Part shown: positions 3,578 to 27,149 of the stretch, in pieces | How the letters are laid out: every line of letters begins with the position of its first letter | Numbering within the stretch: the first letter of the stretch is position 1 | Assembly (NCBI GenBank): GCA_015061605.1 | Contig: SUWH01000013.1 | Location: 1 to 64,000 of the forward strand | Direction of reading: 5' to 3' | DNA: 64,000 nucleotides | DNA from: Lentisphaerota bacterium | GTDB lineage: Bacteria; Verrucomicrobiota; Lentisphaeria; Victivallales; Victivallaceae | Position numbers and translations under genes: made by a program | Notes under the pieces: model-generated | The model's input: only the letters and a program-made list of their open reading frames with translations | Database searches by the model: none | What the model was told of the DNA's origin: nothing

Positions 3578-6307
3578 TTACCTGCCTTTTGAAATATTTA
3601 TATTTTTGATCTCGAAACTTTTCATCCGGGTAAAAAATAGTGCATTCAATCCCACAGCCCCCTGGGGGATCACGGTGTCAAAACTCAATCTGCTATCCTC
3701 CGCCTCTTTCATCATCGACGCCGGGAAAATCTTTCCGTCGATCTTACGGAACTGCTTTTTTCCGGGACGGCTGTTGATGATCAATTCGATACCCTCCGGT
3801 CTGCTGCGCGGGATCACGGTCAGAGTTATGCGGTATTTTCCCGGCACAGCCCAGCGCAGCAGAGCATTGAACCGGATCCGGTTATTTTCTTTGCGTGATA
3901 TTTTTTTGCCGGAAACGCTCCCATTGACAACAGTGGAAAATATATCTGATTTAAAGAGATTTTCCCGGAAAAATTGCAGTTTAACCGGTTTCCAGATACC
4001 GCCGTTGCCGCTGGTATCCTGCACCGCGATGGCAATATGATACGTTTTTCCCGGTACAACGACTCCGGAAAGATCGAAACGGCGTTCCATCATCCATCCT
4101 TCCGGTTCATTCACCGGATCGAATTTGTGTTCACCGATCAATTTACTGTTACAGTAGACCAAGCAGTTTTCATCGACCGCGCCGAGAGACAGCACGATCC
4201 TGCCGGAATCATCCCAATCGGCGGGAACAGTTACTTTTTTCCGGTAGACTCCCCAGCCGTTATAATTGGAAAATCCCTGCATTTCCCAACAATTTGCTGT
4301 GGAGATGCTCTTCCACGATGAATCATTGTACTCCTTTTTAACAACAGTACCGATATTTTTCTCTGCGACCGGAGAAAATTGCCACGCATCGGTCAAATCA
4401 ACTTCGGCAGCAGCTTTCACTTTATTTGCTTCTTTTTCATTGACCCGGAGCATATGTTCCCATGCCCGATTCCCCTGCACATAAGTTGCCACCGCCGTCG
4501 GGAGACCGCCGTGATTGATATGTTTATTGATAAAATCCCACCGTTTGGCAATTGCCGCATTAGCTTTTTTGAAATCTGCTGCGGTCGGCGGAATCACAGG
4601 CTCTATTCCGTGGATCGCACCGCAGGCGATAAGAGAACGGTAATAGTTGCTGTCGGTTTCTGCGGCCTCAAGGCCGGTCGCCATGAAATCAATGCGTTTC
4701 AATTCCGCTTTGTCCTTTGCCGCTTTGCGTGCCTGTGCCAGAAAACGGCGGCCTTCAGCGATTGCCTGTGGAGACATAAGTTCGATGCCGGCAAGCAAAT
4801 TGCCCGGGAATTGATTTTTTCCTTTGGATTTGATTTCGGTCAACCGGCGCTCAAAATATTCAAAATAGGCTCTCATATGCCGGTGGCTGCCGGGAAATCC
4901 GGACAGATAATATTCGTCCAGAAGTTTGTCCAGACTCTGCTCCGGATCCCAGCAGAGCCTTGCCCGGACGAATTCATTCGGTCCGGTCAGCGCGAAATCC
5001 CGGGAATCGTCGCCGCAACTGTCGATACCGTAGAAATTTTTCACTGTCCGGTAAAGCTGTTTTATGGTTTTATCGATCAGAGATGGATAACAGCATATAC
5101 TCATTCCGCGACCGCTGCCCGGATAATCCCGCAGCAGTATGCCGGAAGCTTTTTTGCTCCACGCCGTCACCAGACGGTCAAACTTATCTTTATCCTGCGG
5201 AACCATGTTCCAATTTATACCTTTGCATACAGCCACGACAACTCTGTCATTCAATTTCGGCAGCCCAGCCGGTGGATCAGTGTGCAAACTGTAAGCGTAT
5301 ACCGCGATTTTCTGTGTTGAACCCAGTTTATCAAGTGCTTCAGCTGTCCGCTGGGCAAATGTGAAAACCCGTCCGGAGACACACCGGGTATCATCCAGAT
5401 TATCAAACTGTGCCTTCTGACCGCCGTCCAGCTCAATACATTCACTGCATTCGCAATAATTTTCCCCGTCATTCGGACTTACCGGGAAAAAATCCCGTGC
5501 ATCCGGATGTTTCATACCGGTTCGGGCAAAAATCAATGGCAGTTCCCGGTTGGAATGGCAAATTTTCCAACGCGGCCGCCCGTCCCCGGGGCGGCGGCGT
5601 TTCCCGTCGATCTGCGCATAATATTCAGGATGTGAATCAAAATAACGGTCTCCGATGAATTGAGCCGATGAATGGTTGAACCACCCCTGCCATGAACTAC
5701 CCATTCCATTGTAACGGCCGAAACGTACCGCCGCCTCGCGTGATTTCACCGGATAACGTCTGCCGTGTCCGTAAAAACCGGTACGTATCGGCAGCTTCGG
5801 AGCATCATTGACTTTATAACCGGCGGTCGAAATCTTTTCCAATTCCGGATAAATTATACCGCTTTCATCCGGCCACAGCATACGGATGCCGAGTTTATCT
5901 CTCATGAAGCGGTAGACTGCATAAAGAGTTCCGGTATTTGCACGGTAATAATCGGCAAATGGCTTACGGTGATCATCTTTTCCGGCAAGTCGCAGAATAT
6001 TTTCCCCGGGAGAATCAATGATGAATGCATCCCACTCCAATTTTTCCAAAAGCGGATATTTTTCCATCTCCCCGACGATGAACAATGCAGAATATTTTTC
6101 CGGGATCGTACCGGAAACAATACCGGCGTTTATATCCAGTGTCCGTTTCAATGCGGTTTGCAATTCCTTTGCCGCGCACAATGCGGAGGGAGTGGGAGTA
6201 CCAGAGTGGCAGATGATGACCCCCGGCATTTGCCGGTGCAAATCAAATGCGGCAAGGGTAAATGCGGTCAGCAGCAATATTGCCGCGACAAAATATTTTT
6301 TTACCAT
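3578..6307 (-). CDS. secreted DUF4838 domain protein with C-terminal galactose-binding-like domain
   Basis: A 909-residue protein with a signal peptide (MVKKYFVAAILLLTAFTLAA). The first about 150 residues have an alpha-glucuronidase N-terminal-like fold pattern (AAKELQTALKR...ALFIVGE), and DUF4838 follows with motifs such as HPEYYAQIDGKRR and FFPVSPNDGENYCECSEC. Residues about 640-770 resemble a GH2-type jelly-roll sugar-binding domain (AWQFSPVAEKN...GVYRKKVTVP...WMMERRFDL). DUF4838 proteins are abundant in carbohydrate loci but their enzymatic activity is not settled; the acidic and Cys-rich motifs suggest a glycosidase-like extracellular role (inference). First gene of the minus-strand operon of sugar locus 1, divergent from an AraC regulator. 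Confidence 0.8.
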   Translation of the reverse strand: MVKKYFVAAILLLTAFTLAAFDLHRQMPGVIICHSGTPTPSALCAAKELQTALKRTLDINAGIVSGTIPEKYSALFIVGEMEKYPLLEKLEWDAFIIDSPGENILRLAGKDDHRKPFADYYRANTGTLYAVYRFMRDKLGIRMLWPDESGIIYPELEKISTAGYKVNDAPKLPIRTGFYGHGRRYPVKSREAAVRFGRYNGMGSSWQGWFNHSSAQFIGDRYFDSHPEYYAQIDGKRRRPGDGRPRWKICHSNRELPLIFARTGMKHPDARDFFPVSPNDGENYCECSECIELDGGQKAQFDNLDDTRCVSGRVFTFAQRTAEALDKLGSTQKIAVYAYSLHTDPPAGLPKLNDRVVVAVCKGINWNMVPQDKDKFDRLVTAWSKKASGILLRDYPGSGRGMSICCYPSLIDKTIKQLYRTVKNFYGIDSCGDDSRDFALTGPNEFVRARLCWDPEQSLDKLLDEYYLSGFPGSHRHMRAYFEYFERRLTEIKSKGKNQFPGNLLAGIELMSPQAIAEGRRFLAQARKAAKDKAELKRIDFMATGLEAAETDSNYYRSLIACGAIHGIEPVIPPTAADFKKANAAIAKRWDFINKHINHGGLPTAVATYVQGNRAWEHMLRVNEKEANKVKAAAEVDLTDAWQFSPVAEKNIGTVVKKEYNDSSWKSISTANCWEMQGFSNYNGWGVYRKKVTVPADWDDSGRIVLSLGAVDENCLVYCNSKLIGEHKFDPVNEPEGWMMERRFDLSGVVVPGKTYHIAIAVQDTSGNGGIWKPVKLQFFRENLFKSDIFSTVVNGSVSGKKISRKENNRIRFNALLRWAVPGKYRITLTVIPRSRPEGIELIINSRPGKKQFRKIDGKIFPASMMKEAEDSRLSFDTVIPQGAVGLNALFFTRMKSFEIKNINISKGR

Positions 6308-6424: not shown

Positions 6425-7240
6425 ATGAGCAATGCTATTCAATTTTTAGAGAAATCCTGTGCCTACCGACTGGAAAATTCATCGTGGATAAATGCATTGG
6501 TCAGTGTCCGCAGTGCGGGATATTACCGGCTTGGAGATTTCTGGCAGCAGCAGGAAAAACGTGGAAATTTTCTTGAATTGTTCTGGGGAATGGATGGAGT
6601 TCTGGAGTTTCCCGGCAAACGCAGACTTCATAAAAATGAAGCATTGTTCATCATGCCCGGCGAACTGCACCGGCAGCAAATCATCTGTTTCCCGGCAGCA
6701 TATTGCTGGCTGACCCTTGATGGGCATATTGAAGAAATGATACAGATGTACAATATTGATGGAAATATTTTTGATGCCGGAGCCTGTCCGGAACATTTTT
6801 TCCGGCAGTTGATCAATGAAGTCCGGCATATAACCCCGGCGATGGGATATGCCGCCAGTGCCACTGCACTGAAAATAGTTCATCAGGCACTTGGATATGC
6901 CCCATCAAACAAAGAGGGGGAACTGCTGGTCAATGAATTCTGTAAAATGGTGGAGAAATTTTATTCTTCAAGAGAATGCAATATCGATTACATCTCCTCC
7001 ATGCTCGGCATATCCCGGGTGACTTTGTTCCGCGCCGTTACCGGCAGAATGAATTGTACTCCTAAAGAATATCTGGACAAATACCGTCTGCGTGAAGCAG
7101 TTGATCTGTTGATAAACACCGCAATGAGCGTAAATGATATAGCTTTGAGTTGCGGATATTCCGGGGCGAACTACTTTTGCAAGGTATTCCGCAAACAAAT
7201 GGGAACATCACCGGAAATGTTCCGCCGCAACTCTCATTGA
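6425..7240 (+). CDS. AraC family transcriptional regulator, sugar locus 1
   Basis: A 271-residue protein. The N-terminal half is cupin-like (FPGKRRLHKNEALFIMPGELHRQQ, about 60-83) and would bind a sugar ligand. The C-terminal 100 residues carry the two helix-turn-helix motifs of AraC proteins, including MLGISRVTLFRAVTG and DIALSCGYSGANYFCKVFRKQMGTSPEMFR. It is divergently transcribed from the DUF4838 operon over a 117-bp shared control region, so it most likely regulates that operon. The regulator of sugar locus 2 at 53544 has the same layout. Confidence 0.9.
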   Translation: MSNAIQFLEKSCAYRLENSSWINALVSVRSAGYYRLGDFWQQQEKRGNFLELFWGMDGVLEFPGKRRLHKNEALFIMPGELHRQQIICFPAAYCWLTLDGHIEEMIQMYNIDGNIFDAGACPEHFFRQLINEVRHITPAMGYAASATALKIVHQALGYAPSNKEGELLVNEFCKMVEKFYSSRECNIDYISSMLGISRVTLFRAVTGRMNCTPKEYLDKYRLREAVDLLINTAMSVNDIALSCGYSGANYFCKVFRKQMGTSPEMFRRNSH

Positions 7241-7390
7241 CAAGTTATGTCATTTTTTATTTCAGCTATGTTCCCTTCTCCCGAACCCTCATCCCTTTTC
7301 AAGAAAAGCGAGATGTTTTGCCGCTCCGTTGTCGCGGCAAAAGATGCTGTGCGTCAGTAGCATTTGAACTGTTATGCCCGTATTCCAATC

Positions 7391-7478: not shown

Positions 7479-8456
7479 TTATTTATCAAAGGCGTGACCG
7501 GCAGAACCCAGAACTTCCTTGTTCTTGCGGATGTAAAGCTCTTTCAAGCTGGTACGGGCAGGACCGAGATATTTGCGGGGGTCGAATTCGCCCGGCTTTT
7601 CGGTAAAAACTTTGCGGATGGCAGCAGTCATCGCCAGACGGCCGTCGGAGTCGATGTTGATTTTGCAGACAGCGCTCTTGGCAGCGGCGCGGAGCTGATC
7701 TTCACCGATACCGATGGCATCTTTGAGTTTGCCGCCGTTTTCGTTGATGATCTTGACCAGATCCTGCGGAACGCTGGAGGAACCGTGCAGAACGATGGGG
7801 AATCCGGGGATGCGCTTTTCGATTTCAGCGAGGATGTCGAGACGGATTTTGGGATCGTCGCCGGGCTTGAATTTGTAAGCACCGTGGCTGGTACCGATGG
7901 CGATGGCAAGTGAGTCAACGCCGGTACGTTTGACGAAGTCTTCGACCTCTTCCGGACGGGTGTATGTGTGGGTTTCAGCTTTGACGTCATCTTCGACACC
8001 GGCGAGAACACCGAGTTCGCCTTCGACAGTTACATCGTGGGCGTGGGCGTATTCAACGACCTTGCGGGTTTCGGCGATGTTTTCTTCGTAGGGAAGATGG
8101 GAGCCGTCGATCATGACGCTGGAGAAACCGAAATCGATACAGCTTTTGCAGGTTTCAAAATCGGGACCGTGGTCGAGGTGAAGCACGATCGGGATCAGTT
8201 TACCGTTGTTGATCTCTTTGGCGTATTCGACCGCACCCTGGGCCATGTAGCGCAGCAGAGTCTGGTTGGCGTATTCGCGGGCACCTTTGGAAACCTGAAG
8301 AATCAGCGGGGATTCGGTTTCGACGCAGGCCTGGATGATCGCCTGGAGCTGTTCCATATTGTTGAAGTTGTAGGCGGGGATGGCATATCCGCCTTTGACG
8401 GCTTTGGCAAACAGTTCACGGGTGTTCACCAGACCGAGGGACTTGTAATCGACCAT
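7479..8456 (-). CDS. fba: class II fructose-bisphosphate aldolase
   Basis: A 325-residue cytoplasmic zinc enzyme that interconverts fructose-1,6-bisphosphate with dihydroxyacetone phosphate and glyceraldehyde-3-phosphate in glycolysis and gluconeogenesis. The zinc site LHLDHG (92-97, Asp95/His96), GTSHGAYK (188-195) and HGSSSVP (224-230) are all present. AAGGAG lies at 8468-8463 in front of the start. It is a single gene with its own promoter and terminator. It is the longer class II type found in many anaerobes. It could accept tagatose-bisphosphate, but nothing nearby suggests that. Confidence 0.93.
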   Translation of the reverse strand: MVDYKSLGLVNTRELFAKAVKGGYAIPAYNFNNMEQLQAIIQACVETESPLILQVSKGAREYANQTLLRYMAQGAVEYAKEINNGKLIPIVLHLDHGPDFETCKSCIDFGFSSVMIDGSHLPYEENIAETRKVVEYAHAHDVTVEGELGVLAGVEDDVKAETHTYTRPEEVEDFVKRTGVDSLAIAIGTSHGAYKFKPGDDPKIRLDILAEIEKRIPGFPIVLHGSSSVPQDLVKIINENGGKLKDAIGIGEDQLRAAAKSAVCKINIDSDGRLAMTAAIRKVFTEKPGEFDPRKYLGPARTSLKELYIRKNKEVLGSAGHAFDK

Positions 8457-8508
8457 TTTTTCATCTCCTTGATGTTGTTGTTACGGTTTCCCGATTATAC
8501 ATTAATAT

Positions 8509-8537
8509 AATATAACTCATAAACGGCTTTAATTCAA
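8509..8537 (-). promoter_or_regulatory. promoter of fba
   Basis: On the minus strand TTGAAT (8537-8532), 17-bp spacer, TATATT (8514-8509), about 50 bases before the start codon. Confidence 0.65.
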
Positions 8538-8561
8538 GTGCAGATATCGAACTTCTCCGAC

Positions 8562-8590
8562 TTGAAATATCATGTTTGAAGTGCTATATT
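8562..8590 (+). promoter_or_regulatory. promoter of the scaffold/GGGtGRT operon
   Basis: TTGAAA at 8562-8567, 17-bp spacer, TATATT at 8585-8590, about 60 bases before the start at 8652. Confidence 0.7.
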
Positions 8591-8651
8591 ATAGTGTATG
8601 TCTTAAGCGTTTTTAACGTGTTCAACCTATAATCAACAGGAGAAGCGGAGA

Positions 8652-9359
8652 ATGAGTAATTGTCCGTATCAGTGCTCACACGAAGTTGAGCAGATGTGCC
8701 GTGTCGCCAAAGGCGTCAAACACGGTCCCGCCCCGATCCCCGAAGAGGGTAAATGGGTCAAGTCCAAACAGATCAGCGATATTTCCGGTCTCACCCACGG
8801 TATCGGCTGGTGCGCCCCCCAGCAGGGCTGCTGCAAACTCACCCTCAATGTCAAAGACGGCATCATCCAGGAAGCTCTGGTCGAAACTCTCGGCTGCTCC
8901 GGTATGACCCACAGTGCCGCCATGGCTTCTGAGATCCTCCCCGGCAAGACCATCCTCGAAGCATTGAACAGCGACCTGGTCTGCGATGCCATCAACGTCG
9001 CCATGCGCGAACTCTTCAAGCAGATCGTCTACGGCCGCACCCAGACTGCTTTCAGCGAAAACGGTCTGCCCATCGGCGCCGGTCTGGAAGACCTCGGCAA
9101 AGGCCTGCGTTCCCAGGTCGGTACCATGTTCTCCACTCTGGAAAAAGGCCCCCGCTATCTGGAAATGGCTGAAGGCTACGTCCTCGAAATCGGTCTGGAT
9201 GCCAACGACGAGATCATCGGCTACAAGTTCGTCCACCTCGGCAAGATGATGGAAGCCATCCGCAATGGCGCCGCCCCTGCCGAAGCGTTTGAAAACAATG
9301 TCAAGTCCTATGGCCGCTTCGATGAAGCTGTCAAAAAGATCGACCCGCGCAAACAGTAA
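8652..9359 (+). CDS. NifU/IscU-like iron-sulfur cluster assembly scaffold family protein
   Basis: A 235-residue protein of the NifU-like scaffold family variant that occurs next to GGGtGRT proteins in anaerobes. Cys residues fit a cluster-binding scaffold: CAPQQGCCKLTL (about 54-65) and LGCSGMTHSAAMASEIL (about 80-96). The N-terminus is also Cys-rich (CPYQCSHEVEQMC). AGGAGAAG precedes the start. The next gene starts 24 bases after its stop, and the two almost certainly form a transcription unit ended by the terminator at 10407. Which Fe-S client it serves is not known. Confidence 0.8.
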   Translation: MSNCPYQCSHEVEQMCRVAKGVKHGPAPIPEEGKWVKSKQISDISGLTHGIGWCAPQQGCCKLTLNVKDGIIQEALVETLGCSGMTHSAAMASEILPGKTILEALNSDLVCDAINVAMRELFKQIVYGRTQTAFSENGLPIGAGLEDLGKGLRSQVGTMFSTLEKGPRYLEMAEGYVLEIGLDANDEIIGYKFVHLGKMMEAIRNGAAPAEAFENNVKSYGRFDEAVKKIDPRKQ

Positions 9360-9383
9360 CAATTTATTACAGGAGTTCACACA

Positions 9384-10382
9384 ATGAGCGTGAAATTTGA
9401 AGGTTACGAGCGCCGGATCGCCAAAATCGAAAAAGCGCTTGCCGAATACGGTATCGAAAGTCTCGAAGCTGCCCGCGACCTCTGCCTTGCCAAAGGCGTC
9501 GATGTCGAAGCTATCGTCAAGGGCGTTCAGCCCATCGCATTTGAAAACGCCGTCTGGGCTTACACCCTCGGTGCCGCCATCGCTTTCAAGGCCGGTGCCA
9601 AAGATGCCGCCGAAGCTGCCGAAAAGATCGGTATCGGTCTCCAGGCATTCTGCATCCCCGGTTCTGTCGCTGACAACCGCGCTGTCGGTCTCGGCCACGG
9701 CAACCTCGCCGCGATGCTGCTGCGCGAAGAAACCAAGTGCTTCTGCTTCCTCGCCGGTCACGAATCCTTTGCCGCCGCTGAAGGCGCCATCGGTATCGCC
9801 AAAACCGCGAATAAAGTCCGTAAAGATGCCCTCCGCGTCATCCTTAACGGTCTGGGCAAAGATGCCGCTTACATCATCAGCCGTATCAATGGCTTCACCT
9901 ACGTCGAAACCGAATACGACTACTTCACCGGCGAACTCAAGATCGTCGAAGAAAAAGCCTTCTCCGACGGCCCCAAAGCCGCCGTCAAGTGCTACGGTTC
10001 CGATGATGTCAGCGAAGGTGTCGCCATCATGATCCACGAAGGTGTTGACGTTTCCATCACCGGTAACTCCACCAACCCGACCCGCTTCCAGCACCCGGTC
10101 GCCGGTACCTACAAAAAGTGGGCAACCGAAAACGGCCGCAAGTACTTCAGCGTCGCTTCCGGCGGCGGTACCGGACGTACTCTGCACCCGGACAACATGG
10201 CTGCCGGTCCCGCCAGCTACGGCATGACCGATACCATGGGCCGTATGCATGGTGATGCCCAGTTCGCCGGTTCTTCCAGCGTTCCGGCTCACGTCGAAAT
10301 GATGGGCTTGATCGGTATGGGTAACAACCCGATGGTCGGTGCCTCCGTCGCGGTCGCCGTGGCGGTTTCCCAGGCGAAGTAA
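9384..10382 (+). CDS. GGGtGRT protein
   Basis: A 332-residue member of the family named after its SGGGTGRTLHPDNMAAG motif (about 253-269). Also visible are GMTDTMGRMHGDAQFAGSSS and the Gly/Ala-rich C-terminus MGNNPMVGASVAVAVAV. There is no signal peptide. The molecular role of the family is not established; its constant pairing with the NifU-like scaffold suggests an Fe-S dependent function (inference). The coding sequence is notably rich in C at third positions, as expected for a highly expressed gene. AGGAG precedes the start. Confidence 0.85.
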   Translation: MSVKFEGYERRIAKIEKALAEYGIESLEAARDLCLAKGVDVEAIVKGVQPIAFENAVWAYTLGAAIAFKAGAKDAAEAAEKIGIGLQAFCIPGSVADNRAVGLGHGNLAAMLLREETKCFCFLAGHESFAAAEGAIGIAKTANKVRKDALRVILNGLGKDAAYIISRINGFTYVETEYDYFTGELKIVEEKAFSDGPKAAVKCYGSDDVSEGVAIMIHEGVDVSITGNSTNPTRFQHPVAGTYKKWATENGRKYFSVASGGGTGRTLHPDNMAAGPASYGMTDTMGRMHGDAQFAGSSSVPAHVEMMGLIGMGNNPMVGASVAVAVAVSQAK

Positions 10383-16667: not shown

Positions 16668-17393
16668 GCGCGCTGACTTGGAAAATCCGGGGCTCGGGAA
16701 CATGAGTTCACCTCGCCCCGGACTTTCCTGCGTCTTCATCGCACGATTTTCACGCCGGTTGGAGACAGGGAAAATAATGTAACAACGCGACTGGCAAGGC
16801 GCCTTTCGCCGGGCTGATCGCCCGACAGGCGAGTGGTTGTTGATGATTCCGCCTTGCGGCGGTTGTTCTAACGATGGCGCGCTGACTTGGAAAATCCGGG
16901 ACTCGGGAACATGAGTTCACCTCGACCCGGACTTTCCTGCGTCTTCATCGCACGATTTTCACGCCGGTTGGAGACAGGGAAAATAATGTAACAACGCGAC
17001 TGGCAAGGCGCCTTTCGCCGGGCTGATCGCCCGACAGGCGAGTGGTTGTTGATGATTCCGCCTTGCGGCGGTTGTTCTAACGATGGCGCGCTGACTTGGA
17101 AAATCCGGGACTCGGGAACATGAGTTCACCTCGACCCGGACTTTCCTGCGTCTTCATCGCACGATTTTCACGCCGGTTGGAGACAGGGAAAATAATGTAA
17201 CAACGCGACTGGCAAGGCGCCTTTCGTCGGGCTGATCGCCCGACAGGCGAATGGTTGTTATATTTTCCGCCTTGCGGCGGTTGTTTTAACAAGTGCGCGC
17301 TGACTTGGAAAATCCGGGGCTCGGGAACATGAGTTCACCTCGCCCCGGACTTTCCGGCGTCATCATCGCACGATATTCTCGCCGGTTGGAAAT
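16668..17393. repeat. tandem array of a 209-bp unit (about 3.5 copies)
   Basis: Copies start at 16668, 16877, 17086 and 17295, each marked by GCGCGCTGACTTGG, giving an exact 209-base period. The fourth copy stops at about 17393. Each unit holds three inverted repeats: TCCGGGGC...GCCCCGGA, CGGGC-TGAT-CGCCCG-like and CCGCC-TTG-CGGCGG. The units differ by only a few substitutions. A single partial copy is at 21111-21260. No coding function is apparent; a 71-codon open frame across the array on the minus strand is a by-product of the repeat. The rest of the gap (17394-17586) shows nothing recognisable. Confidence 0.92.
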
Positions 17394-18127: not shown

Positions 18128-20071
18128 ATGTTGGCATTGGTATTTTTGCTGGTACTGACGATAATATATTCCGTATTATATTATTGCGATATTCCAACAA
18201 TGTATTTTTTTGTTGGTGTATTTATATTACTATTCATGATGATGCTATGGAGTGCATTCCGTTTGATGAAAACTAAAACTGCAGTTTTAATCATTTTGGG
18301 TATATATTGGATAATTACATTCCCTCTGACTGTTTGTTTTGTGGCAATAAGAATTGCTATGAAAGATAACATTTCCATTGAATTATTGCAGATGTTTTCT
18401 TGGCAAAGTATGCATGGGATATTGCGTTATCATTGTGTGCCCTTATTTGTCGGGCTGATATTTCTGCTTTTGTTGTTTCTGTTGTCGTGTGTTGCTGCAA
18501 AAAAGGTTTTTCCACAATATAGATTTAAACCCGAATGGAATGGCTTTGTGTATTTTTTTATAGCAGTTTTTTTAAATCTGAGTTGTATTTACTGTGCTTC
18601 TCAACCTCTGGTAGACAAAATAATAGAATTATACAAGGTTAAGAATATGCCGGTTGATTATATTTTAAATAACGGTATTGAAGGTATAACATTCAGCAGT
18701 AAAGACTTAAGCTGTACTCCCGGTTATAACCTTGTACATATATTTCTTGAAAGTACAGAGCAAAATTATGCAGATCCCCAGAGATTTCCCAATCTCGTTC
18801 CTGAATTGCATAATGCAATTAAAAACAGCATTTGGTTTTCTAATATTGATATGGCACCGAATGCGAATTTGACTTACGGAGGTATTTATGCGTCATTAAA
18901 GGGCTTCAATATTACCCGCTTTCACATATTGAACAATCTGCGTAAGCAAAACATTTTGCCCGGTAAACAATTTGTTTCAATGCCGGATATTCTTCATGCA
19001 GCGGGATATTTGCAGCATTTTATCTATGGGCATTATTCATCTTTTGCTGATTTTAACTCTTTTCTTGCATCAGAACATTTTAATATAAAAATGTTGAATG
19101 ATAAGCAATATCAGCATTCATTGCAACAAGTTGATTCAGTCAGAGATTCAGAACTGTTTGAATCAGCATGGCAAGATTTTAAGAAACTATCGCAAAGTAA
19201 ACGTCCATTTTCTTTGACTTGTTTAACCGTTGATGCACATGCTCCTGATGGTGCATGTGATTCTGATAAAAAGTTTTATCGGTGGAATCAGAAAGAAGTG
19301 CCGCAACTGCTGCACGCCATTCATAATACAGATAAAGCATTAGGGGTATTTCTCAAAAGAATACTCGAATCAGAAGCTGCTTCAAAAACAGTAATAGTAA
19401 TTCAATCTGATCATCTCAGCCATCCATATACTCCTTCTATTGTTCTAAATCGGTTGGGAGATAACCGGAAAATGCTTTTTTTAATTATAACACCTGAGAA
19501 AATTAAAGAAAATATATCAATCGCCGGAAGAACATATGATATTGCGCCAACAATTTTACACAGCATGAAAGTAAAGCACAACTGTCCCTTTTTATTAGGG
19601 AGAAACTTGTTGGTAAAAAATCATCGGTCTGGGGATGTTAATGATGAAGATCAGCAGAAGGCTCTTGAAGGTGCGATGTTTCTGAATGCAAATATGGATT
19701 GCCAGGCAAAAAAATATGGAGTATCATTTCATGAAAAACCTTATCCTCACATAAAAATCGGCACTGATAAAATTTTTATTCAAAATACCTATTCCGGGAT
19801 AAACGGTATACCGCGCGCAGGGAAGTGTTTTCTTTTGGAAGCTACATATTCATTTGAATTTCACGCACTGTCATCTTACACCACTGATGGCTCCGGGCAG
19901 AATAAAAAAAGAAAAAATAATTTTGTAAAATACTATCACAATTTCATTTTTGGAGCAGAAAAAGATAATAGTGGTTTTTACTTTATATATAATTCCCCGC
20001 GAAAAACTATAAAGAAAAAATCCAAAACTTTTTCCAATGTCAGATTTGATGCTGATGAGATATTCAATTGA
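18128..20071 (+). CDS. membrane sulfatase-fold transferase (OpgB/LTA synthase-like)
   Basis: A 647-residue protein with five or so N-terminal membrane segments (residues 1-180) and a periplasmic alkaline-phosphatase-fold domain. The fold is marked by NLVHIFLESTEQNY (nucleophile region, about 203-216), LTVDAHAPDG (about 372-381) and VIQSDHLSHPYTPS (about 424-437). This pattern is that of phosphoglycerol transferases such as OpgB/MdoB and LtaS, which move phosphoglycerol from phosphatidylglycerol onto glycans. The gene is clearly more AT-rich than its neighbours, as is the next gene, suggesting recent acquisition. No good Shine-Dalgarno is visible before the ATG. Confidence 0.72.
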   Translation: MLALVFLLVLTIIYSVLYYCDIPTMYFFVGVFILLFMMMLWSAFRLMKTKTAVLIILGIYWIITFPLTVCFVAIRIAMKDNISIELLQMFSWQSMHGILRYHCVPLFVGLIFLLLLFLLSCVAAKKVFPQYRFKPEWNGFVYFFIAVFLNLSCIYCASQPLVDKIIELYKVKNMPVDYILNNGIEGITFSSKDLSCTPGYNLVHIFLESTEQNYADPQRFPNLVPELHNAIKNSIWFSNIDMAPNANLTYGGIYASLKGFNITRFHILNNLRKQNILPGKQFVSMPDILHAAGYLQHFIYGHYSSFADFNSFLASEHFNIKMLNDKQYQHSLQQVDSVRDSELFESAWQDFKKLSQSKRPFSLTCLTVDAHAPDGACDSDKKFYRWNQKEVPQLLHAIHNTDKALGVFLKRILESEAASKTVIVIQSDHLSHPYTPSIVLNRLGDNRKMLFLIITPEKIKENISIAGRTYDIAPTILHSMKVKHNCPFLLGRNLLVKNHRSGDVNDEDQQKALEGAMFLNANMDCQAKKYGVSFHEKPYPHIKIGTDKIFIQNTYSGINGIPRAGKCFLLEATYSFEFHALSSYTTDGSGQNKKRKNNFVKYYHNFIFGAEKDNSGFYFIYNSPRKTIKKKSKTFSNVRFDADEIFN

Positions 20072-20087
20072 CATATGAAAATTAATC

Positions 20088-20702
20088 ATGATATTATTTT
20101 TGCATTTATTATTATCAATTAATCCATTCAGTAAAATTCTGATTATTGTTTTTATATGTCAACATTTAAAAAAAGAAGTTGTCATAAAAAATGTCATATT
20201 GTCTTTTTTTATTGCATTGTTGATCTCTTTATGCAGTATACCATTGGCTGTTTTATGCTGTGGGAAGTTTGCGATTGAATTCTCTTTTATTGCAAACATA
20301 TGCGTCGCAATTTCCTTTTTACTTTGTGCGTATTGGCAACTGGATCGCGTAGAAAAAAATATTTTGAAAAGTAAAGTTTTTTTTGCATTGCCATTAGCTT
20401 TTCCTTTGATATGCGGCCCTAATTTTATTGGCGTAATATTCCAATATCTGACGGCTGGTTTTTCTGTTGGAATAATTATACTTGGAGTATGTTTTGCAAT
20501 GATTTCTAATCTTGCAATCATGTTGCTTACGATAGAATTCTCAATACCATCAAGAGAGTTTTTTTTAAAAAAGATTAAGTATATATCGATATGTATTTTT
20601 CTTTGTTGTTGTATGTATCATTTTTGCTTAACTTGGAAATTTGGTAAAATACTTTATGCAAAATATAATTACCACTTGGTGAAAGTTTCCAAATTTGATT
20701 GA
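20088..20702 (+). CDS. multi-pass membrane protein, MarC-like
   Basis: A 204-residue, six-segment membrane protein. Two stretches fit MarC family proteins: INPFSKILIIVFI near the N-terminus and PLAFPLICGPNFIGVIF around residues 101-117 (MarC has PLAIPLIAGPG). Divergence is high, so the assignment is tentative. The function of MarC proteins is unknown. The gene starts 16 bases after the preceding stop and shares its AT-rich composition, so the two were probably acquired together. Confidence 0.5.
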   Translation: MILFLHLLLSINPFSKILIIVFICQHLKKEVVIKNVILSFFIALLISLCSIPLAVLCCGKFAIEFSFIANICVAISFLLCAYWQLDRVEKNILKSKVFFALPLAFPLICGPNFIGVIFQYLTAGFSVGIIILGVCFAMISNLAIMLLTIEFSIPSREFFLKKIKYISICIFLCCCMYHFCLTWKFGKILYAKYNYHLVKVSKFD

Positions 20703-20916: not shown

Positions 20917-22920
20917 TCAGATGACCGTACACAAGCCTTTGAGGTAAAAGGTTTCCGGGACAGAAAGCAGTACCGGATGGTCGGGCGACTGGGTGAATTT
21001 ACCGACGATGCGGGCTTCAACATTGGCTTCCAGTGCCGCTGAAGCGGTTATTTTCTGAAAGAGCTCGCTCTCCATCAGTCCGGAACAGGAAAAGTTGAAC
21101 ATCACCCCGCCCGGACTTTCCCGCGTCTTCATCGCACGATTTTCACGCCGATTGGATACAGGGAAAGTAATGTAACAACGCAACTGGCAAGGCGCCTTTC
21201 GCCGGGCTGATCGCCCGACAGGCGAATGGTTGTTGATGATTCCGCCTTGCGGCGGTTGTTTTTTGCTGACAGATATATCCATTATTTCAAACAGTAATCT
21301 GTCAATATGGAAGTTACAGAATTTTTCCTCTGAAAGTTTCTTTATTTTACCGGCTAACTCCGGACGCAGTCTCTGCAATTCATCCGACAGATAAACAAAC
21401 ATTACAATATCTTTTTCGTCAACTCCATGGTCAGAACAGTAAACAATAGCCCGGGTTTCCGGAAAAGAGCGTAATACAGATATGATTTTTGCCAAGATTT
21501 CATCATAATACAGCAATCCGAGTTCCTGCTCATCCATGTCGTTATGCTTCCGGGCAAAATCTTCCGGAATTATAACATCCCCTCCGTGAAGCCCAAGAGG
21601 CTTAATAACTGTAAAAGATCGTTTTTTGTCAAAAACATTCTCTCTGTACATCCTCTGCAAATTATCCGGAATTTCATTATCAACCTGAAATCCCTTTTTC
21701 CAGTATTTCCGGCCATAAGATTTATTGTCAGTCACCAATGAAAAATCAGCCCGCTTAAACATTGCATGCATTGTAATATTGAAACTCAGCCATTGACCGA
21801 CATTATGGATGAACAATGATTTATACTTCAAAAACTGCATCACATCCAGAAAATCCGGCGCATTTGCTAAAGATGCACGACTTACCAGCTGCGGCGCAAG
21901 ACTCATCATGTTGCAGACATTCATGTCTGATCTGCCAGCGTAATTCAAATAATTGTTTTCAACATCCTGTATCCAGGAAACATTTTTAAACACAAAATAA
22001 TCCGGATCATTATGAATACTTTTAAAAAAAGTTTCTTTTCTGCAAAGTGCCCGGTATGCAGGTTTATACTCATGGCTTTCGCCGATGATCAGAAAATAAA
22101 GCCCAGGAACACCAGCATTTTTCACCTCATACGAACCATCAGTCAGAGAATTGCTTATTTTTCTGTAAGTACCTTTTCTGGTATTTGCAAGGGGAAATGA
22201 TAATTGTTCCGATATCAAATAAAACAATCTGGACTCATATAATAAAAACAAAGAGGTCAAGGCAACAAAGGTCATAGCATACCAATTACACCGGAACTTC
22301 GGTGCCGGAAATGGCAGCTGCATAATAAACATACAGGCAAGCAACACCGTAAGCCGTATCCCCAATCCGACTAAAGCAAATCTGATATCATGGTTATTCC
22401 AGAAATACTCCCATACATCTCCAAGCAAAAACGAAACATGATACGCATTGAGCATTCTATTCCAATCAAAGGAAAAATAACAGAGCAGCGGCAGAGACAT
22501 TATTCCGGCATAGATGCAAAACATGATTTTTCTGCATAAATCCGGCATTTTTATTTTGAATATCAACAAAAACAATATGAGAAATATTATCCCGGAGATA
22601 TTTAACATAATTATGTTTTGTTTCAGCAATATTTCCGGTAAATGATCAATGTTATACCAGAATAATGAAATTGAGGTAAATATACAGGCGGCAAGAAATA
22701 AAAATCTGATTTTTTCCTTAACCGCCAATGTCAAAGGCAAAACAAGTGAAAGTACCAAAACAGACACTTGAAGACTTTGATACCGGTTTATCTCCGGCCA
22801 AAATATCTTCCAGATGAAAACTGATGCTGCAAAAAGCGTTAAATTGGAATAAATAATAAATCTTTTACTGTGGAAAATCTGTTTCAAATCATTCAGATTT
22901 ATCTTTTTTAATAATGACAT
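20917..22920 (-). CDS. phosphoethanolamine-transferase-like membrane enzyme with a repeat-derived C-terminus
   Basis: A 667-codon open frame. Residues 1 to about 250 contain five or more membrane segments. From about 270 follows an alkaline-phosphatase-fold domain with LYFLIIGESHEYKP (the GES nucleophile region of EptA/CptA-type lipid A phosphoethanolamine transferases) and AIVYCSDHGVDEK (about 490-502). Homology ends near residue 553 (FEIMDISVSKK). The next about 50 residues are translated from a copy of the 209-bp repeat, and the last 62 are the C-terminus of the rlmI product. The natural end of the enzyme is therefore missing. The start overlaps the upstream small membrane protein gene by 32 bases. 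Whether the chimera is active is unknown. Confidence 0.75.
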   Translation of the reverse strand: MSLLKKINLNDLKQIFHSKRFIIYSNLTLFAASVFIWKIFWPEINRYQSLQVSVLVLSLVLPLTLAVKEKIRFLFLAACIFTSISLFWYNIDHLPEILLKQNIIMLNISGIIFLILFLLIFKIKMPDLCRKIMFCIYAGIMSLPLLCYFSFDWNRMLNAYHVSFLLGDVWEYFWNNHDIRFALVGLGIRLTVLLACMFIMQLPFPAPKFRCNWYAMTFVALTSLFLLYESRLFYLISEQLSFPLANTRKGTYRKISNSLTDGSYEVKNAGVPGLYFLIIGESHEYKPAYRALCRKETFFKSIHNDPDYFVFKNVSWIQDVENNYLNYAGRSDMNVCNMMSLAPQLVSRASLANAPDFLDVMQFLKYKSLFIHNVGQWLSFNITMHAMFKRADFSLVTDNKSYGRKYWKKGFQVDNEIPDNLQRMYRENVFDKKRSFTVIKPLGLHGGDVIIPEDFARKHNDMDEQELGLLYYDEILAKIISVLRSFPETRAIVYCSDHGVDEKDIVMFVYLSDELQRLRPELAGKIKKLSEEKFCNFHIDRLLFEIMDISVSKKQPPQGGIINNHSPVGRSARRKAPCQLRCYITFPVSNRRENRAMKTRESPGGVMFNFSCSGLMESELFQKITASAALEANVEARIVGKFTQSPDHPVLLSVPETFYLKGLCTVI
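20927..21115 (-). repeat. 189-bp duplicate of the rlmI 3' end
   Basis: Matches 25972-26160 without gaps and with six substitutions that I could count (about 97% identity). The copy is in frame with the preceding open frame, supplying its last 62 codons. The boundary with the adjacent repeat lies in the short shared sequence CCCGGA. Confidence 0.92.
21111..21260. repeat. single partial copy of the 209-bp repeat
   Basis: About 150 bases matching the part of the tandem array unit from ACTTTCC to the CCGCCTTGCGGCGGTTGTT hairpin, with scattered substitutions. It joins the transferase gene to the rlmI duplicate. Confidence 0.9.
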
Positions 22921-23101
22921 CTTCTTCGATTTCCTCTTCAGAAATATTCCGGGATTTTAAAACCGCGGCACTTCTTTTTTTCAAAAATGCGAATATCAAA
23001 CTCGCCACAGTTCCCAGACCGAGGGCAATACCGGCGACAGTTTGGACAACATAAGACATCGCCGACGGTTCAATATATGCAATTATAACATTCTCAATCA
23101 T
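22889..23101 (-). CDS. small membrane protein of a surface-polysaccharide operon
   Basis: A 70-residue protein with one long hydrophobic helix (about 14-44) and a charged Glu/Lys-rich tail. It belongs to a type of short 'YIEPS/YIDPG...' membrane protein often found beside surface-polymer genes; no function is known. It overlaps the transferase start by 32 bases and follows the nucleotidyltransferase stop by 11 bases, so it is clearly part of the operon. It may be a membrane partner of the transferase (inference). Confidence 0.6.
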   Translation of the reverse strand: MIENVIIAYIEPSAMSYVVQTVAGIALGLGTVASLIFAFLKKRSAAVLKSRNISEEEIEEDVIIKKDKSE

Positions 23102-23112
23102 TTTTTCTTCCT

Positions 23113-23820
23113 TTACAATAACTTTTTTATTCTTTCCAAATCTTCTTTATTGTCGATCTCGGCACAGAGAGCATCTTTGGCATCGTATCCGTAAATACAA
23201 CACTCATCAGAAACTTCGTTAAACGCATTTTCAGCATAACAATCCCGTTTTCCGGATTCGCAAAATTCGCAGATCCGGTCAAGCCATATCAGCCAGTCTT
23301 TCTGTTTCAACTTGTAAAAAGCCTGTGCCTCCACAGCCCCCGGTCCAAAAAATTCAATGCCGATTTTTTTGACCGTCCCACCCTCGATGACAGCTTTGAA
23401 ATCCTTTTCCGGCAACGGACAGCTGGTACTTATTTTAACACAGCTGTACGGTGTTGACATGATTCCGGCAAGGACAGAACTTTCAAAAACAAGATCACCG
23501 TGCATAAGAATGATATCATCATCCAGAAGCTCTTCTCTTGCCCGGTAAATAGAATATATGTAGTTGGTATTCCTGTAATCGCTGTTGAAAACAAAACGGA
23601 AATTCAGCGGCAGATCAAGTGATTTGCAATACTGCTGCAGAAGTTGATGCTGATACCCGGTCGTCATTATGATATCCCGCAGATTCTCTTTGCAAAGCAT
23701 CGACAGTTGACGGCTTAAAATGGTTTTCTCACTGGAGACGGCAGTCATACATTTGGGGTGTATTTTGGTTTCATCTCCCATGCGGCTTCCAACGCCGGAA
23801 TTAAGAATAAGCACTTTCAT
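23113..23820 (-). CDS. LicC-like sugar/alcohol-phosphate nucleotidyltransferase
   Basis: A 235-residue cytoplasmic enzyme of the GT-A nucleotidyltransferase fold. The N-terminal loop LNSGVGSRMG (6-15) with the following PKCMTAV binds NTP-Mg. FNSDYRNTNYIYSIYRARE (about 78-96) and MHGDLVFESS (about 105-114, the metal-binding Asp) match LicC-type phosphocholine cytidylyltransferases. It would make a CDP-activated head group (choline, ethanolamine, glycerol or similar); the specificity cannot be read. It lies 19 bases after the YidC-glycerophosphotransferase fusion, which uses CDP-linked donors if typical of its family, so the two steps fit one pathway. Confidence 0.75.
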   Translation of the reverse strand: MKVLILNSGVGSRMGDETKIHPKCMTAVSSEKTILSRQLSMLCKENLRDIIMTTGYQHQLLQQYCKSLDLPLNFRFVFNSDYRNTNYIYSIYRAREELLDDDIILMHGDLVFESSVLAGIMSTPYSCVKISTSCPLPEKDFKAVIEGGTVKKIGIEFFGPGAVEAQAFYKLKQKDWLIWLDRICEFCESGKRDCYAENAFNEVSDECCIYGYDAKDALCAEIDNKEDLERIKKLL

Positions 23821-23839
23821 TGTCAGACATCACCATTTT

Positions 23840-25717
23840 CTACTGATTTAATGTTTTGCGGCGGGATTGTTGCTTTTCGACCAAGCGTTCCAAAATATAC
23901 CTGCCTGCTGCCTCTCCGCTTTTTCCGGCATTGAATACATATTTTTCCCGGGCGGCGATTATTTTTTCTCTGTACCGTTCGGGATTTTGGAAAAGTTCCC
24001 TGACGGTTTCTGTTATTTTTCCGGTTTCCGAAATATCGAGTGAAATTCCGGTCTCATCACGCATAGTGATATTTATAGGTTCGATCCCGACTTTCCGGTA
24101 ATTGGGATTGATCACTTTCATCGGGGTATTGATAAAAAGAACCGGACGCAGAACGGAAAACGCAAATTCATAAGCGATACCGGACCAGTCGGTGATGACC
24201 ATATCGGACGTAAAAATAGTTTCATTGGAGGAAAAATCAGATTCAAGCACCACATTCTGATATTTTTCAGCCTTGCAAAAAGCAGTCACAGCCGCCCATT
24301 TATGTGGAAATCGTTTCAAATATTCCGGATGCGGTCTTACTGTTATGAGGTAATCTTCTTTGGTCAGTTGCTCAAGAATTTCCTGATACACTCCGTCAAG
24401 GATATTACCTTCATGCCAACTTGGAGCGATCAAGATCCGTTTGGTTCCCGGAGTAACAGCAGAAGTCTCATTTGCATAACGTGCCATCAAAGTATCGAGC
24501 AGACCGTATCCGCAATGAACAAGATTTTTTCTGTTGGTATGATAAAGTTCCTCCATTTTGCGAAGTTCGCGCACCTGACTGTCGCATACGCAGAAAATGG
24601 TATCAAAATTATCGAGGGCATGTTCGCGCAAGGTCATATGCGTACTGCTTATGGCATGATCGGTATATATGTATTCAATGTCTTTTTTCACATAACTGCG
24701 TTTGAGGTGAAAATTTCCAAGATCCGGAGTGGTCATAACAACAATATCGGCATCCATGCGCATAAAAAGGGAAATCAACTTTGCCGGTCCCTGAAAATAT
24801 CCTTTGATCCGCGGATTATTCATTTCAAATATCCGGTCATGGAAGTCCGAGGTCACATAGTGGATAATACAGTTTGAATTTTCGAGCAGGTAATTTATGA
24901 TCTGCTCAAAATATTTATAGAAACCGCTGGCTTCGCTGTAAAAAACAATGTGCTTATTGGCAACTGAAAAGAAACGTTTCCGGTCTTCTTTTTCTTTTTT
25001 CTTCTGTTCCGGAGTCATTTGGGAATGCAAAGCTCTCCGGACTTTATTGTACCGTATCTGACTTTTTCTCAAGCGGTAATAGTTTATGAATTTTGCCGGA
25101 GGAAGGATCCTGTTGCAAATCAACTGAAAGAGTATCGACAGCAGGTTACTGGCCGACCAGTAAAACGAGATCCCGGCCATGACAAACAAACCGAAGAAAA
25201 ATGAGAGCGAAATCGAAATAATATTGGTTATGAATTGTGAAGTACGGCTCTGTTCACGCTGAAGCGGGTTGCACGCATTCTGACTCCAACCGAAAAGAGC
25301 CGCAGAAACTCCGGCAAATATCGGCATGCCCCAGGATATTCCTCCATCCTTGACCGGTACCATGGCGGCAAAGGAATCCACACCGGCAAGTTGTTTCTCT
25401 ACAGCAGACAGAAGAAGAATAAGCAATATGAGCTGCAAAGTCACCGGCAGCAAACTCAAAAAGGGATGATATCCGGCTTCCTTGAAAAGCTTTCTTTCTG
25501 TTTGTGCCAGAAGTTCGCTGTCGGCGGCATAGATACTTTTTGCTTCATTGAGCTGCGGCAGGAGTCTGACCATAAGGATCTGGTTCCAGTGGCACCAGAG
25601 CGAAACCGGAAGCAGAATCAATTTTGTTATAACGCCAAACAGCAGTACGCCGGTAAAAAATTCACCGGTAACACCACAGCACCACGATAAAAATTGATTT
25701 ATAACTTCAATACCCAT
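23840..25717 (-). CDS. YidC/Oxa1-like domain fused to CDP-glycerol glycerophosphotransferase domain
   Basis: A 625-residue protein with two recognisable halves. Residues about 10-215 look like the YidC/Oxa1 core: a membrane segment with LLFGVITKLILLPVSLW, the cytoplasmic hairpin with ARG-rich and acidic residues (LLPQLNEAKSIYAADSELLA, KLFKEAGYHPFLSLLPVTLQ), then MPIFAGVSAALFGWSQ and SFYWSASNLLSILFQL. After a charged linker (KKKEKEDRKR, about 240) residues about 255-610 match TagB/TagF-type glycerophosphotransferases: YTDHAISSTHM, IAPSWHEGN, VRPHPEYLKRFP and DMVITDWSGIAYEF. The TagF-type domain normally adds glycerol-phosphate to a lipid-linked acceptor at the cytoplasmic face. The fused YidC part could anchor it or handle the lipid-linked chain (inference). 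First gene of a four-gene operon. Confidence 0.85.
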   Translation of the reverse strand: MGIEVINQFLSWCCGVTGEFFTGVLLFGVITKLILLPVSLWCHWNQILMVRLLPQLNEAKSIYAADSELLAQTERKLFKEAGYHPFLSLLPVTLQLILLILLLSAVEKQLAGVDSFAAMVPVKDGGISWGMPIFAGVSAALFGWSQNACNPLQREQSRTSQFITNIISISLSFFFGLFVMAGISFYWSASNLLSILFQLICNRILPPAKFINYYRLRKSQIRYNKVRRALHSQMTPEQKKKEKEDRKRFFSVANKHIVFYSEASGFYKYFEQIINYLLENSNCIIHYVTSDFHDRIFEMNNPRIKGYFQGPAKLISLFMRMDADIVVMTTPDLGNFHLKRSYVKKDIEYIYTDHAISSTHMTLREHALDNFDTIFCVCDSQVRELRKMEELYHTNRKNLVHCGYGLLDTLMARYANETSAVTPGTKRILIAPSWHEGNILDGVYQEILEQLTKEDYLITVRPHPEYLKRFPHKWAAVTAFCKAEKYQNVVLESDFSSNETIFTSDMVITDWSGIAYEFAFSVLRPVLFINTPMKVINPNYRKVGIEPINITMRDETGISLDISETGKITETVRELFQNPERYREKIIAAREKYVFNAGKSGEAAGRYILERLVEKQQSRRKTLNQ

Positions 25718-25773
25718 ATTGATTTGCTTCTATCAGCGAATTATTACCGACAACAAAAATATACCGGTGAATA

Positions 25774-25802
25774 ATGTAGCATAAAATTTGCTCCTATGCA
25801 AA
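25774..25802 (-). promoter_or_regulatory. putative promoter of the surface-polymer operon
   Basis: On the minus strand TTGCAT (25802-25797), 17-bp spacer, TACATT (25779-25774), about 55 bases before the fusion gene start. The rest of the 25718-25961 gap is AT-rich with no recognisable feature. Confidence 0.5.
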
Positions 25803-25961
25803 TAAAAATATGATTTTACAATAAAATTATCTTCAAATATACACAAATATTCCATGAATTTTTAAAAACAGCGTTTACCAACCGCCTGTCACGGCGCAGT
25901 GCAACAAATATACCGCCGCCATAACAGAACAACACATCGTGAAGTCCGGATCATGACAAGC

Positions 25962-27149
25962 TCAAATTGCAGTACACAAGCCTTTGAGGTAAAAGGTTTC
26001 AGGGACAGAAAGCAGTACCGGATGATCGGGCGACTGGGTGAATTTACCGACGATGCGGGCATCGACATTGGCTTCCAGTGCCGCTGAAGCGGTTATTTTC
26101 TGAAAGAGCTCGCTCCCCATCAGCCCGGAACAGGAAAAGTTGAACATCACCCCGCCCGGATTCAACAGTTTGAAGCCCAGCCGCGCCAGATCCTGATAGC
26201 CCCGGCAGCCGCGCATCAGCGATTTCTGCGAATCAATCAGCTTCGGCGGATCAAGAATGACCAGATCAAATTTCTCTCCGGCACGTTCAAGCTCCCGCAG
26301 TACGGTGAAACCATCGCCCTGACGGTTCTCAAAACGATCGGTGAAACCATTGAGGTGCAGATTTTTTTCCGCAGTTTTAAGTGCCGGAAGCGATGAATCG
26401 ACATTCATCACAAATTCCGCTCCGGCATCCAGTGCCACGCAGCTGAATGCCCCCGTATAGGAAAATAAATTCAAAATCCGGCGCCCACCGGCAAAACGGC
26501 GCAAGGTGCGGCGCGCTTCACGCAGATCAAAATAAAATCCGGTCTTCTGACCTTTGCGCATATCCACATGATAACGCAAGCCGTCTTCGGTGATGATCAA
26601 CTCATCCGGGATCGGTTTGCCGCAGAGCAGTTCCATACGTTCCGGCAACCCCTCTTTTTTGCGTATCGCCGCATCGGAACGGTCAAATACACTGTCGATA
26701 CCGTCAAGTTCCAGCAGCAATCTGCCGATAAGTTCACGGTGTTTTTCCGCTCCGGCACTCAAAAACTGAACACACGCACAGCGGCCGTAACGGTCAACGA
26801 TAATGCCGGGAAGTTCATCGGATTCAGAATAAATAAGCCGGCATCCGCCGTTTTCATCATCCAGACCGAGTGTTTTACGCAGTTCTACGGCGCGGGCAAT
26901 GCGTTTGCGGAAAAATTCTTCATCGACCGTTTCACCGGCATCAAAACTCCACACTCTGCCGCAAAGCTGGGATTCCGGTGACCACGCCGCCAGTGCCAGA
27001 ACATCTCCTGAACTGCTGACGACTTTAACCGTATCCCCCGGAGCCGCCTTGCCCTGCAAACGCTCAACCGCCCCGGAATATATCCACGGATGGCGGCGCA
27101 GCAGGGATTTTTCGCGCCCTTTGCGCAAAATGAGGGTGGCTTCGCTCAT
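25962..27149 (-). CDS. rlmI: class I SAM-dependent rRNA methyltransferase, RlmI family
   Basis: A 395-residue protein with an N-terminal PUA domain (RKGREKSLLRRHPWIYSGAV, then PGDTVKVVSSSGDVLALAAWSP) and a Rossmann methyltransferase domain: MRKGQKTGFYFDLREARRTL, VLNLFSYTGAFSCVAL-type motif I (ILNLFSYTGAFS) and LVILDPPKL (catalytic loop). RlmI methylates C1962 of 23S rRNA in E. coli; the exact site here is inferred from the family. The start overlaps the nrdR stop by four bases. The last 189 bp of this gene have been copied to 20927-21115 and partly to 1428-1502. Confidence 0.88.
   Translation of the reverse strand: MSEATLILRKGREKSLLRRHPWIYSGAVERLQGKAAPGDTVKVVSSSGDVLALAAWSPESQLCGRVWSFDAGETVDEEFFRKRIARAVELRKTLGLDDENGGCRLIYSESDELPGIIVDRYGRCACVQFLSAGAEKHRELIGRLLLELDGIDSVFDRSDAAIRKKEGLPERMELLCGKPIPDELIITEDGLRYHVDMRKGQKTGFYFDLREARRTLRRFAGGRRILNLFSYTGAFSCVALDAGAEFVMNVDSSLPALKTAEKNLHLNGFTDRFENRQGDGFTVLRELERAGEKFDLVILDPPKLIDSQKSLMRGCRGYQDLARLGFKLLNPGGVMFNFSCSGLMGSELFQKITASAALEANVDARIVGKFTQSPDHPVLLSVPETFYLKGLCTAI

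Follow-up and report, generated by a model that had tools for sequence, protein, structure and literature searches.

What does an insertase fold do when it is joined to a transferase of the TagF type, and which group does such an enzyme move? The question is raised by one gene in a 64,000-nucleotide stretch of DNA from a Lentisphaerota bacterium, called the window in the following. The source genome is 2.56 Mb in 52 contigs and 88.7% complete. The features of the locus are:

23840..25717, minus strand: 625-aa fusion protein, YidC/Oxa1 core plus PF04464 transferase, first gene of a co-directional set
25109..25651, minus strand: YidC/Oxa1 domain (PF02096), with Lys32 at the groove position
24125..24967, minus strand: PF04464 (TagF-type GT-B) domain match, including H354 and H463
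23113..23820, minus strand: LicC/PntC-type nucleotidyltransferase, 235 aa, 19 bases after the fusion gene
20917..22920, minus strand: EptA/sulfatase-like membrane protein, 192 bases beyond the nucleotidyltransferase gene, with GES and SDHG motifs
20917..21115, minus strand: copy of the 3' end of rlmI, 199 nt long and 95% identical to 25962-26160, situated at the acquired segment's border

The Fusion Protein

The original prediction was that a YidC core and a TagF-type domain are found in a single 625-residue protein, and this is confirmed by both curated Pfam cut-offs being exceeded: PF02096 scores 76.5 bits at residues 23-203 (cut-off 35) and PF04464 scores 57.2 bits at residues 251-531 (cut-off 22.1). 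The core had been placed at about residues 10-215, which agrees with the PF02096 match and with the fold, as the fusion gives structure matches to the YidC proteins of B. halodurans and E. coli. The family TIGR03592 gives 64.6 bits on the window fusion, below its cut-off of 84.3. That the gene heads an operon is borne out by the co-directional genes downstream. The source genome has a separate housekeeping YidC, a 560-aa open frame, and no PF04464 match besides the fusion.

Distribution and Origin

Including the window there are 16 distinct fused loci (the others are L005, L006, L037, L038, L039, L046, L047, L048, L129, L130, L131, L132, L133, L134, and L138). The 15 others are 40-59% identical to the window protein, and L047, L130, and L131 are nearly identical among themselves. 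A near-copy of the window locus (L004/L137) was excluded from this count, and a fragment at a contig end (L124/G468) was left out. The expectation that other genomes carry the same fusion is thus met by 15 distinct loci and, in another genus, by the near-copy. An assembly error joining two genes is ruled out for all practical purposes by this recurrence at 40-59% identity together with the 99% copy in another record.

The PF04464 subfamily to which the fusion belongs is sparsely distributed. It is present in 4 of 137 genomes of the window's order, all with fusion-length frames, in 13 of 345 genomes of the class of G277 (eight fusion-length frames, four unfused, and one fragment), and in 6 of 288 genomes of the phylum (E 1e-40), four of them fused. 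Further fusions were found in Planctomycetia and Bacillales bins and in three human-gut scaffolds. A search of the own genome and 59 relatives gave matches at E 0.001 in 54 of the 60 genomes and none in six; the matches in these relatives cover residues 4-229 and lie in frames of 560-690 aa, as expected for housekeeping YidC. Among the papers listed in searches of an open-access library none describes a YidC-PF04464 fusion, and the architecture may well be recorded in domain-architecture databases.

A phage or plasmid origin of the gene was considered and rejected, there being no plasmid match and no viral-contig match. L037, L038, and L039 are deposited as "Bacteriophage sp."; they are unannotated gut scaffolds which we take for bacterial DNA, and L039 carries an operon for the biosynthesis of 2-aminoethylphosphonate (AEP).

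The window copy appears to be a newcomer in its genus. Positions 22848-25907 are 98.3% identical to L004; L137, in genome G589 of another genus of the same family, gives the same matches as L004 on a contig which likewise has 7,321 bases. The fusion segment has a lower GC content and is flanked on either side by a copy of the 3' end of rlmI, and the fusion was not found in 33 other genomes of the same genus. The simplest reading is a recent horizontal transfer. L004 also carries a 77-nt piece of the rlmI copy. In the window the sulfatase-like open reading frame extends into the rlmI copy, whereas the L004 version ends after SKK; a search of PDB sequences with the window frame gave matches confined to the rlmI-derived end.

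Some other elements of this region should be mentioned. A 209-bp unit is repeated in tandem at 16668-17390, three and a half times in all, with a partial unit at the segment border (21102-21260), and the same unit is found in L004 at 6881-7289; as RNA it folds strongly (-83.8 kcal/mol). The same low-GC island carries, on the opposite strand, a phosphoglycerol-transferase-I-like sulfatase-type protein (18128-20071, plus strand) and a small membrane protein (20088-20702, plus strand).

The Transferase Half

Aligning the classical member L089 to TagF, together with the family alignment, makes H354 and H463 of the fusion correspond to H444 and H584 of TagF, which we take to be catalytic. The number H584 is a count made here; the title of 3l7m reads H548A. 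The aligned positions are His in all 16 fused proteins and in all five unfused members described below. The TDYSS block of the classical enzymes reads TDWS(G/D/N) in the fused set, and the D...Y motif which follows it in the classical members compared is replaced by TPMK..N, in which T531, P532, M533, K534, and N537 are invariant; by this motif the fused proteins fall outside the classical subfamily. A profile of the PF04464 half gave no match among PDB sequences at E 0.01; the link to TagF rests on Pfam and on the fold comparison. The fusion has in common with TagF/TarL the PF04464 domain, the GT-B fold by structure match, both His positions, and the RxHP and TD-aromatic-S blocks. It differs by the attached YidC core, by TPMK in place of D...Y, and by the phosphonate genes found at half of the loci.

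For a tree, 13 classical PF04464 loci were tried among 31 matches listed; three gave no frame, two a wrong frame, and eight entered the tree. The fused proteins and their unfused sisters are separated from these eight classical members of the phylum by a branch of 3.19 with support 100/99, and the classical members form a group of their own (100/99). The fused proteins come out as one group in 86% of the bootstrap trees, with support 89/99, which is not above the starred threshold. This grouping makes a single fusion event likely.

Linkage to Phosphonate Genes

The gene for PEP mutase (PepM) is found within eight of the 16 fused loci (L005, L039, L047, L129, L130, L131, L132, and L138), which represent four lineages, five of the loci being from one genus. 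Phosphonopyruvate decarboxylase (Ppd) accompanies PepM in all eight and AEP transaminase in seven. At least one of PepM, Ppd, AEP transaminase, and nucleotidyltransferase is present in 12 of the 16 loci, and a sulfatase-type membrane protein in ten. All these neighbour counts are lower bounds, as several of the stretches are short; they rest on a separate similarity search for the partners, the gene caller being crude in high-GC loci. Several of the sulfatase-type partners were identified by their phmmer similarity to one another, and Pfam at E 0.001 assigned no family to the partner in L046 or to that in L005, which is truncated by the contig end.

In both L005 and L039 there are enzymes that score over the NCBIfam cut-offs of PEP mutase and of AEP transaminase. 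L005 passes also that of phosphonopyruvate decarboxylase, and the L005 nucleotidyltransferase scores 205 bits against T. denticola PntC vs. 52.7 against LicC. L047 has in one run the decarboxylase, a nucleotidyltransferase, the transaminase, a CTP-transferase-PepM, the fusion, and the sulfatase-type protein. L006 has a nucleotidyltransferase gene adjoining the fusion gene and preceding it, no PepM in its 17.5-kb stretch, and genes for an ABC transporter; in NCBIfam these come closest to the AEP importer families PhnS2/T2/U2, all below cut-off. The nucleotidyltransferase of L046 is PntC-like, with 162 bits to the PntC of L005, while its genome, G281, has no PepM listed at E 1e-60, which is consistent with the use of scavenged AEP. 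In L132 a protein which by eye looks NusG-like (3944-4462) lies between the decarboxylase and the fusion.

The linkage is also seen at the level of genomes. The 288 genomes of the phylum drawn for PepM, for the subfamily, and for PF04464 are taken as identical (same request, recurring handles). PepM is present in 17 of them (E 1e-60) and the subfamily in six, and both occur in four (Fisher p = 1.2e-4). The genomes are not independent, as G135 and G146 belong to one genus. With the fused genomes alone PepM is found in two of four (p = 0.018). PF04464 as a whole (E 1e-8) is found in 19 of the 288, five of them with PepM (p = 0.003). The fused-family profiles of either half found nothing in 17 further PepM stretches taken from these genomes, and PepM pathways can thus dispense with this enzyme. 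In two of the 17, L078 (2578-7336) and L081 (5078-11490), PepM and Ppd are followed by an enzyme gene and then, a few genes away, by a different PF04464 gene of a more classical type, which the fused-family profiles miss. The connection between PF04464 and phosphonates is thus wider than the fusion subfamily, and the product of this gene is perhaps another phosphonate transferase.

We count against a phosphonate reading that L134 has the fusion without any of the partners sought, that L037, L038, and L048 have the sulfatase-type partner only, and that the loci with PepM are skewed towards one genus. By eye, the L134 fusion (3582-5507) lies amid housekeeping-looking genes.

A Model for the Reaction

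In the reactions of PF04464 enzymes the point of attack on CDP-glycerol or CDP-ribitol is the phosphate linked to CMP. CMP-AEP is the phosphonate counterpart of the CDP-alcohols, and it would thus be a natural donor for a PF04464 enzyme in which the alcohol end is changed. The original prediction had the fusion make a polyol-phosphate polymer. This part is not upheld: half of the fused loci lie in AEP clusters and the D...Y motif is replaced by the invariant TPMK, with which the transfer of a single CMP-activated headgroup fits better.

We consider it reasonably probable that the fusion is a membrane-bound transferase which draws on a CMP-activated donor to place a phosphonate or phospho-headgroup on an acceptor embedded in the membrane. 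In many relatives PepM, the decarboxylase, the transaminase, and the cytidylyltransferase would together make CMP-2-aminoethylphosphonate; in the window the nucleotidyltransferase would make the CMP-activated donor. The PF04464 domain would take the CMP-activated small phosphorus group, CMP-AEP in many relatives, and the direction of transfer would be from this donor onto a hydroxyl of the acceptor at the cytoplasmic face, with release of CMP. The reaction would be TagB/TagF chemistry with a different headgroup, which in much of the family is most probably a phosphonate. The YidC domain would be the anchor, and its positively charged groove is the probable site at which the lipid-linked acceptor is held. 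At the outer face, the product would be the substrate of the neighbouring sulfatase-type membrane protein.

PntC is the enzyme that makes CMP-AEP (PMC6697681), and relatives of the window have PepM, Ppd, AEP transaminase, and PntC-type enzymes in their clusters, as in the Pnt pathway. For its own clusters PMC6697681 points to LicD-like phosphotransferases or glycosyltransferases, whereas the clusters here have the PF04464 fusion; the main text of that paper mentions neither YidC nor CDP-glycerol.

The Donor in the Window Lineage

The alternative that we take most seriously concerns the donor. The window lineage might use CDP-glycerol, CDP-choline, or CDP-ethanolamine in a Lic/Tag-like phosphate pathway, and phosphonate would then be used in relatives only. 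We hold this to be possible, although we would not bet on it. It agrees with the chemistry of the PF04464 family, and with the window genome (88.7% complete), in which neither the cluster nor the rest gives a PepM match at E 0.001. Furthermore, the window nucleotidyltransferase has LicC as its best match among solved structures, with 40.5 bits vs. 25.8 for T. denticola PntC. The enzyme carries the GXG(T/S)RX4-8PK motif, in the form given for PntC in PMC6697681, as GVGSRMGDETKIHPK in translation. Its His107 is aligned to Glu104 of Tde-PntC, which contacts the amine, so that the Glu is lacking in this alignment; the register is uncertain at such low identity.

On the other hand a search of the window genome for choline kinase, at the same completeness and E 0.001, gave no match either. 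The close relative L046, with its PntC-like enzyme and no PepM listed, fits scavenged AEP, and the window protein keeps the TPMK which is common to the PepM-linked fused members. In comparison with the Lic pathway, then, the window system shares the nucleotidyltransferase that is nearest to LicC; it differs in the missing choline kinase match and in having a PF04464 transferase and not LicD. The genome also codes for a permease resembling PhnU2, with 109 bits against a cut-off of 593; this is uninformative, because the same search gives matches in all 14 control genomes. The window copy may move scavenged AEP or an alcohol phosphate, or its headgroup may be of another kind.

The sulfatase-like protein of the window scores 20.8 bits with Pfam Sulfatase, below the cut-off of 25. 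No position for a nucleophile Thr could be made out in this protein, which may be altered or inactive.

The YidC Half and its Groove

It was suggested to look for conservation of the groove Arg of YidC in this family. The positive charge is conserved and the Arg is not: the position is Lys in all 16 fused proteins (Lys32 in the window). Among 30 housekeeping YidC proteins of the order, 27 are readable at this position, 18 with Arg and nine with Lys, and the remaining three have no letters there. Across the 16 fused proteins 24 positions are invariant in residues 1-212; the groove Lys is one of these, as are Q95, Q146-N147, Q153, and E155-Q156. The fusion shares with the YidC/Oxa1/SpoIIIJ insertases a PF02096 score over cut-off, structure matches, and a positive groove residue. 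It differs from them in being without the large periplasmic domain, in being joined to a soluble transferase, and in being a second copy besides the housekeeping YidC.

The transferase is also found without YidC, in five loci (L049, L050, L125, L135, and L136). PepM or Ppd adjoins the unfused transferase in four of the five; for L049, PepM is encoded on a separate contig of the genome. By eye, the N-termini of these sisters are short basic stretches, except that L050 has one hydrophobic stretch. In L050 the gene next to the transferase (7702-10380) codes for a protein of 892 aa, in which a YidC domain precedes a sulfatase-like part, and after this gene come genes for a PepM-nucleotidyltransferase and a nucleotidyltransferase-transaminase. 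This YidC domain scores 79.9 bits and is also over the TIGR03592 cut-off; the sulfatase-like assignment consists of a 31-bit match and motifs seen by eye, the C-terminal part giving no Pfam sulfatase match at E 0.001. The YidC module thus occurs fused to either partner, the transferase or the sulfatase-like protein. The L050 protein has Asn and not Lys at the groove position, which speaks against an identical role.

These observations bear on what the YidC domain is for. It might be a membrane anchor only, the groove being idle, and the basic N-terminal stretches of the unfused sisters, or the hydrophobic stretch of L050, could likewise serve to anchor a transferase. We find this somewhat unlikely in view of the 24 invariant positions of the YidC half, the groove Lys included. 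Also, the YidC-like domain of L050 is joined to a sulfatase-like protein which has hydrophobic segments of its own, and the N-terminus of the L050 transferase is itself hydrophobic. It is plausible, as was originally proposed, that the YidC fold handles the acceptor at the cytoplasmic face.

A more far-reaching version would combine synthesis with lipid scrambling. E. coli YidC is reported to scramble lipids in vitro (PMC10491306), which makes it conceivable that the PF04464 domain loads phosphonate on a lipid of the inner face, that the YidC half scrambles this lipid outward, and that the sulfatase-type partner passes the headgroup to surface glycans. We consider this doubtful. If it were true, the YidC fold would be a movable lipid-handling module, which in L050 sits on the outward-facing enzyme.

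Finally, the YidC domain might be an insertase dedicated to the partner membrane enzymes of the operon. It does have a YidC core with the groove charge, the blocks of its cytoplasmic loop can be aligned, and membrane partners are present in ten of the 16 loci. However, the genome already has a housekeeping YidC, and tying an insertase to a nucleotide-dependent transferase would seem to have no obvious purpose. We regard this as improbable.

Implications

We thus prefer the headgroup transferase with an acceptor-handling YidC domain. The steps after formation of the C-P bond in the tailoring of surface phosphonates are called enigmatic in PMC6697681, and the fusion family would be a concrete and repeatedly linked candidate for the transfer step in surface phosphonate decoration. 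The fusion would also exemplify the reuse of an insertase fold in the chemistry of glycolipids or glycans, and the family may serve as a natural test of lipid handling by YidC folds.
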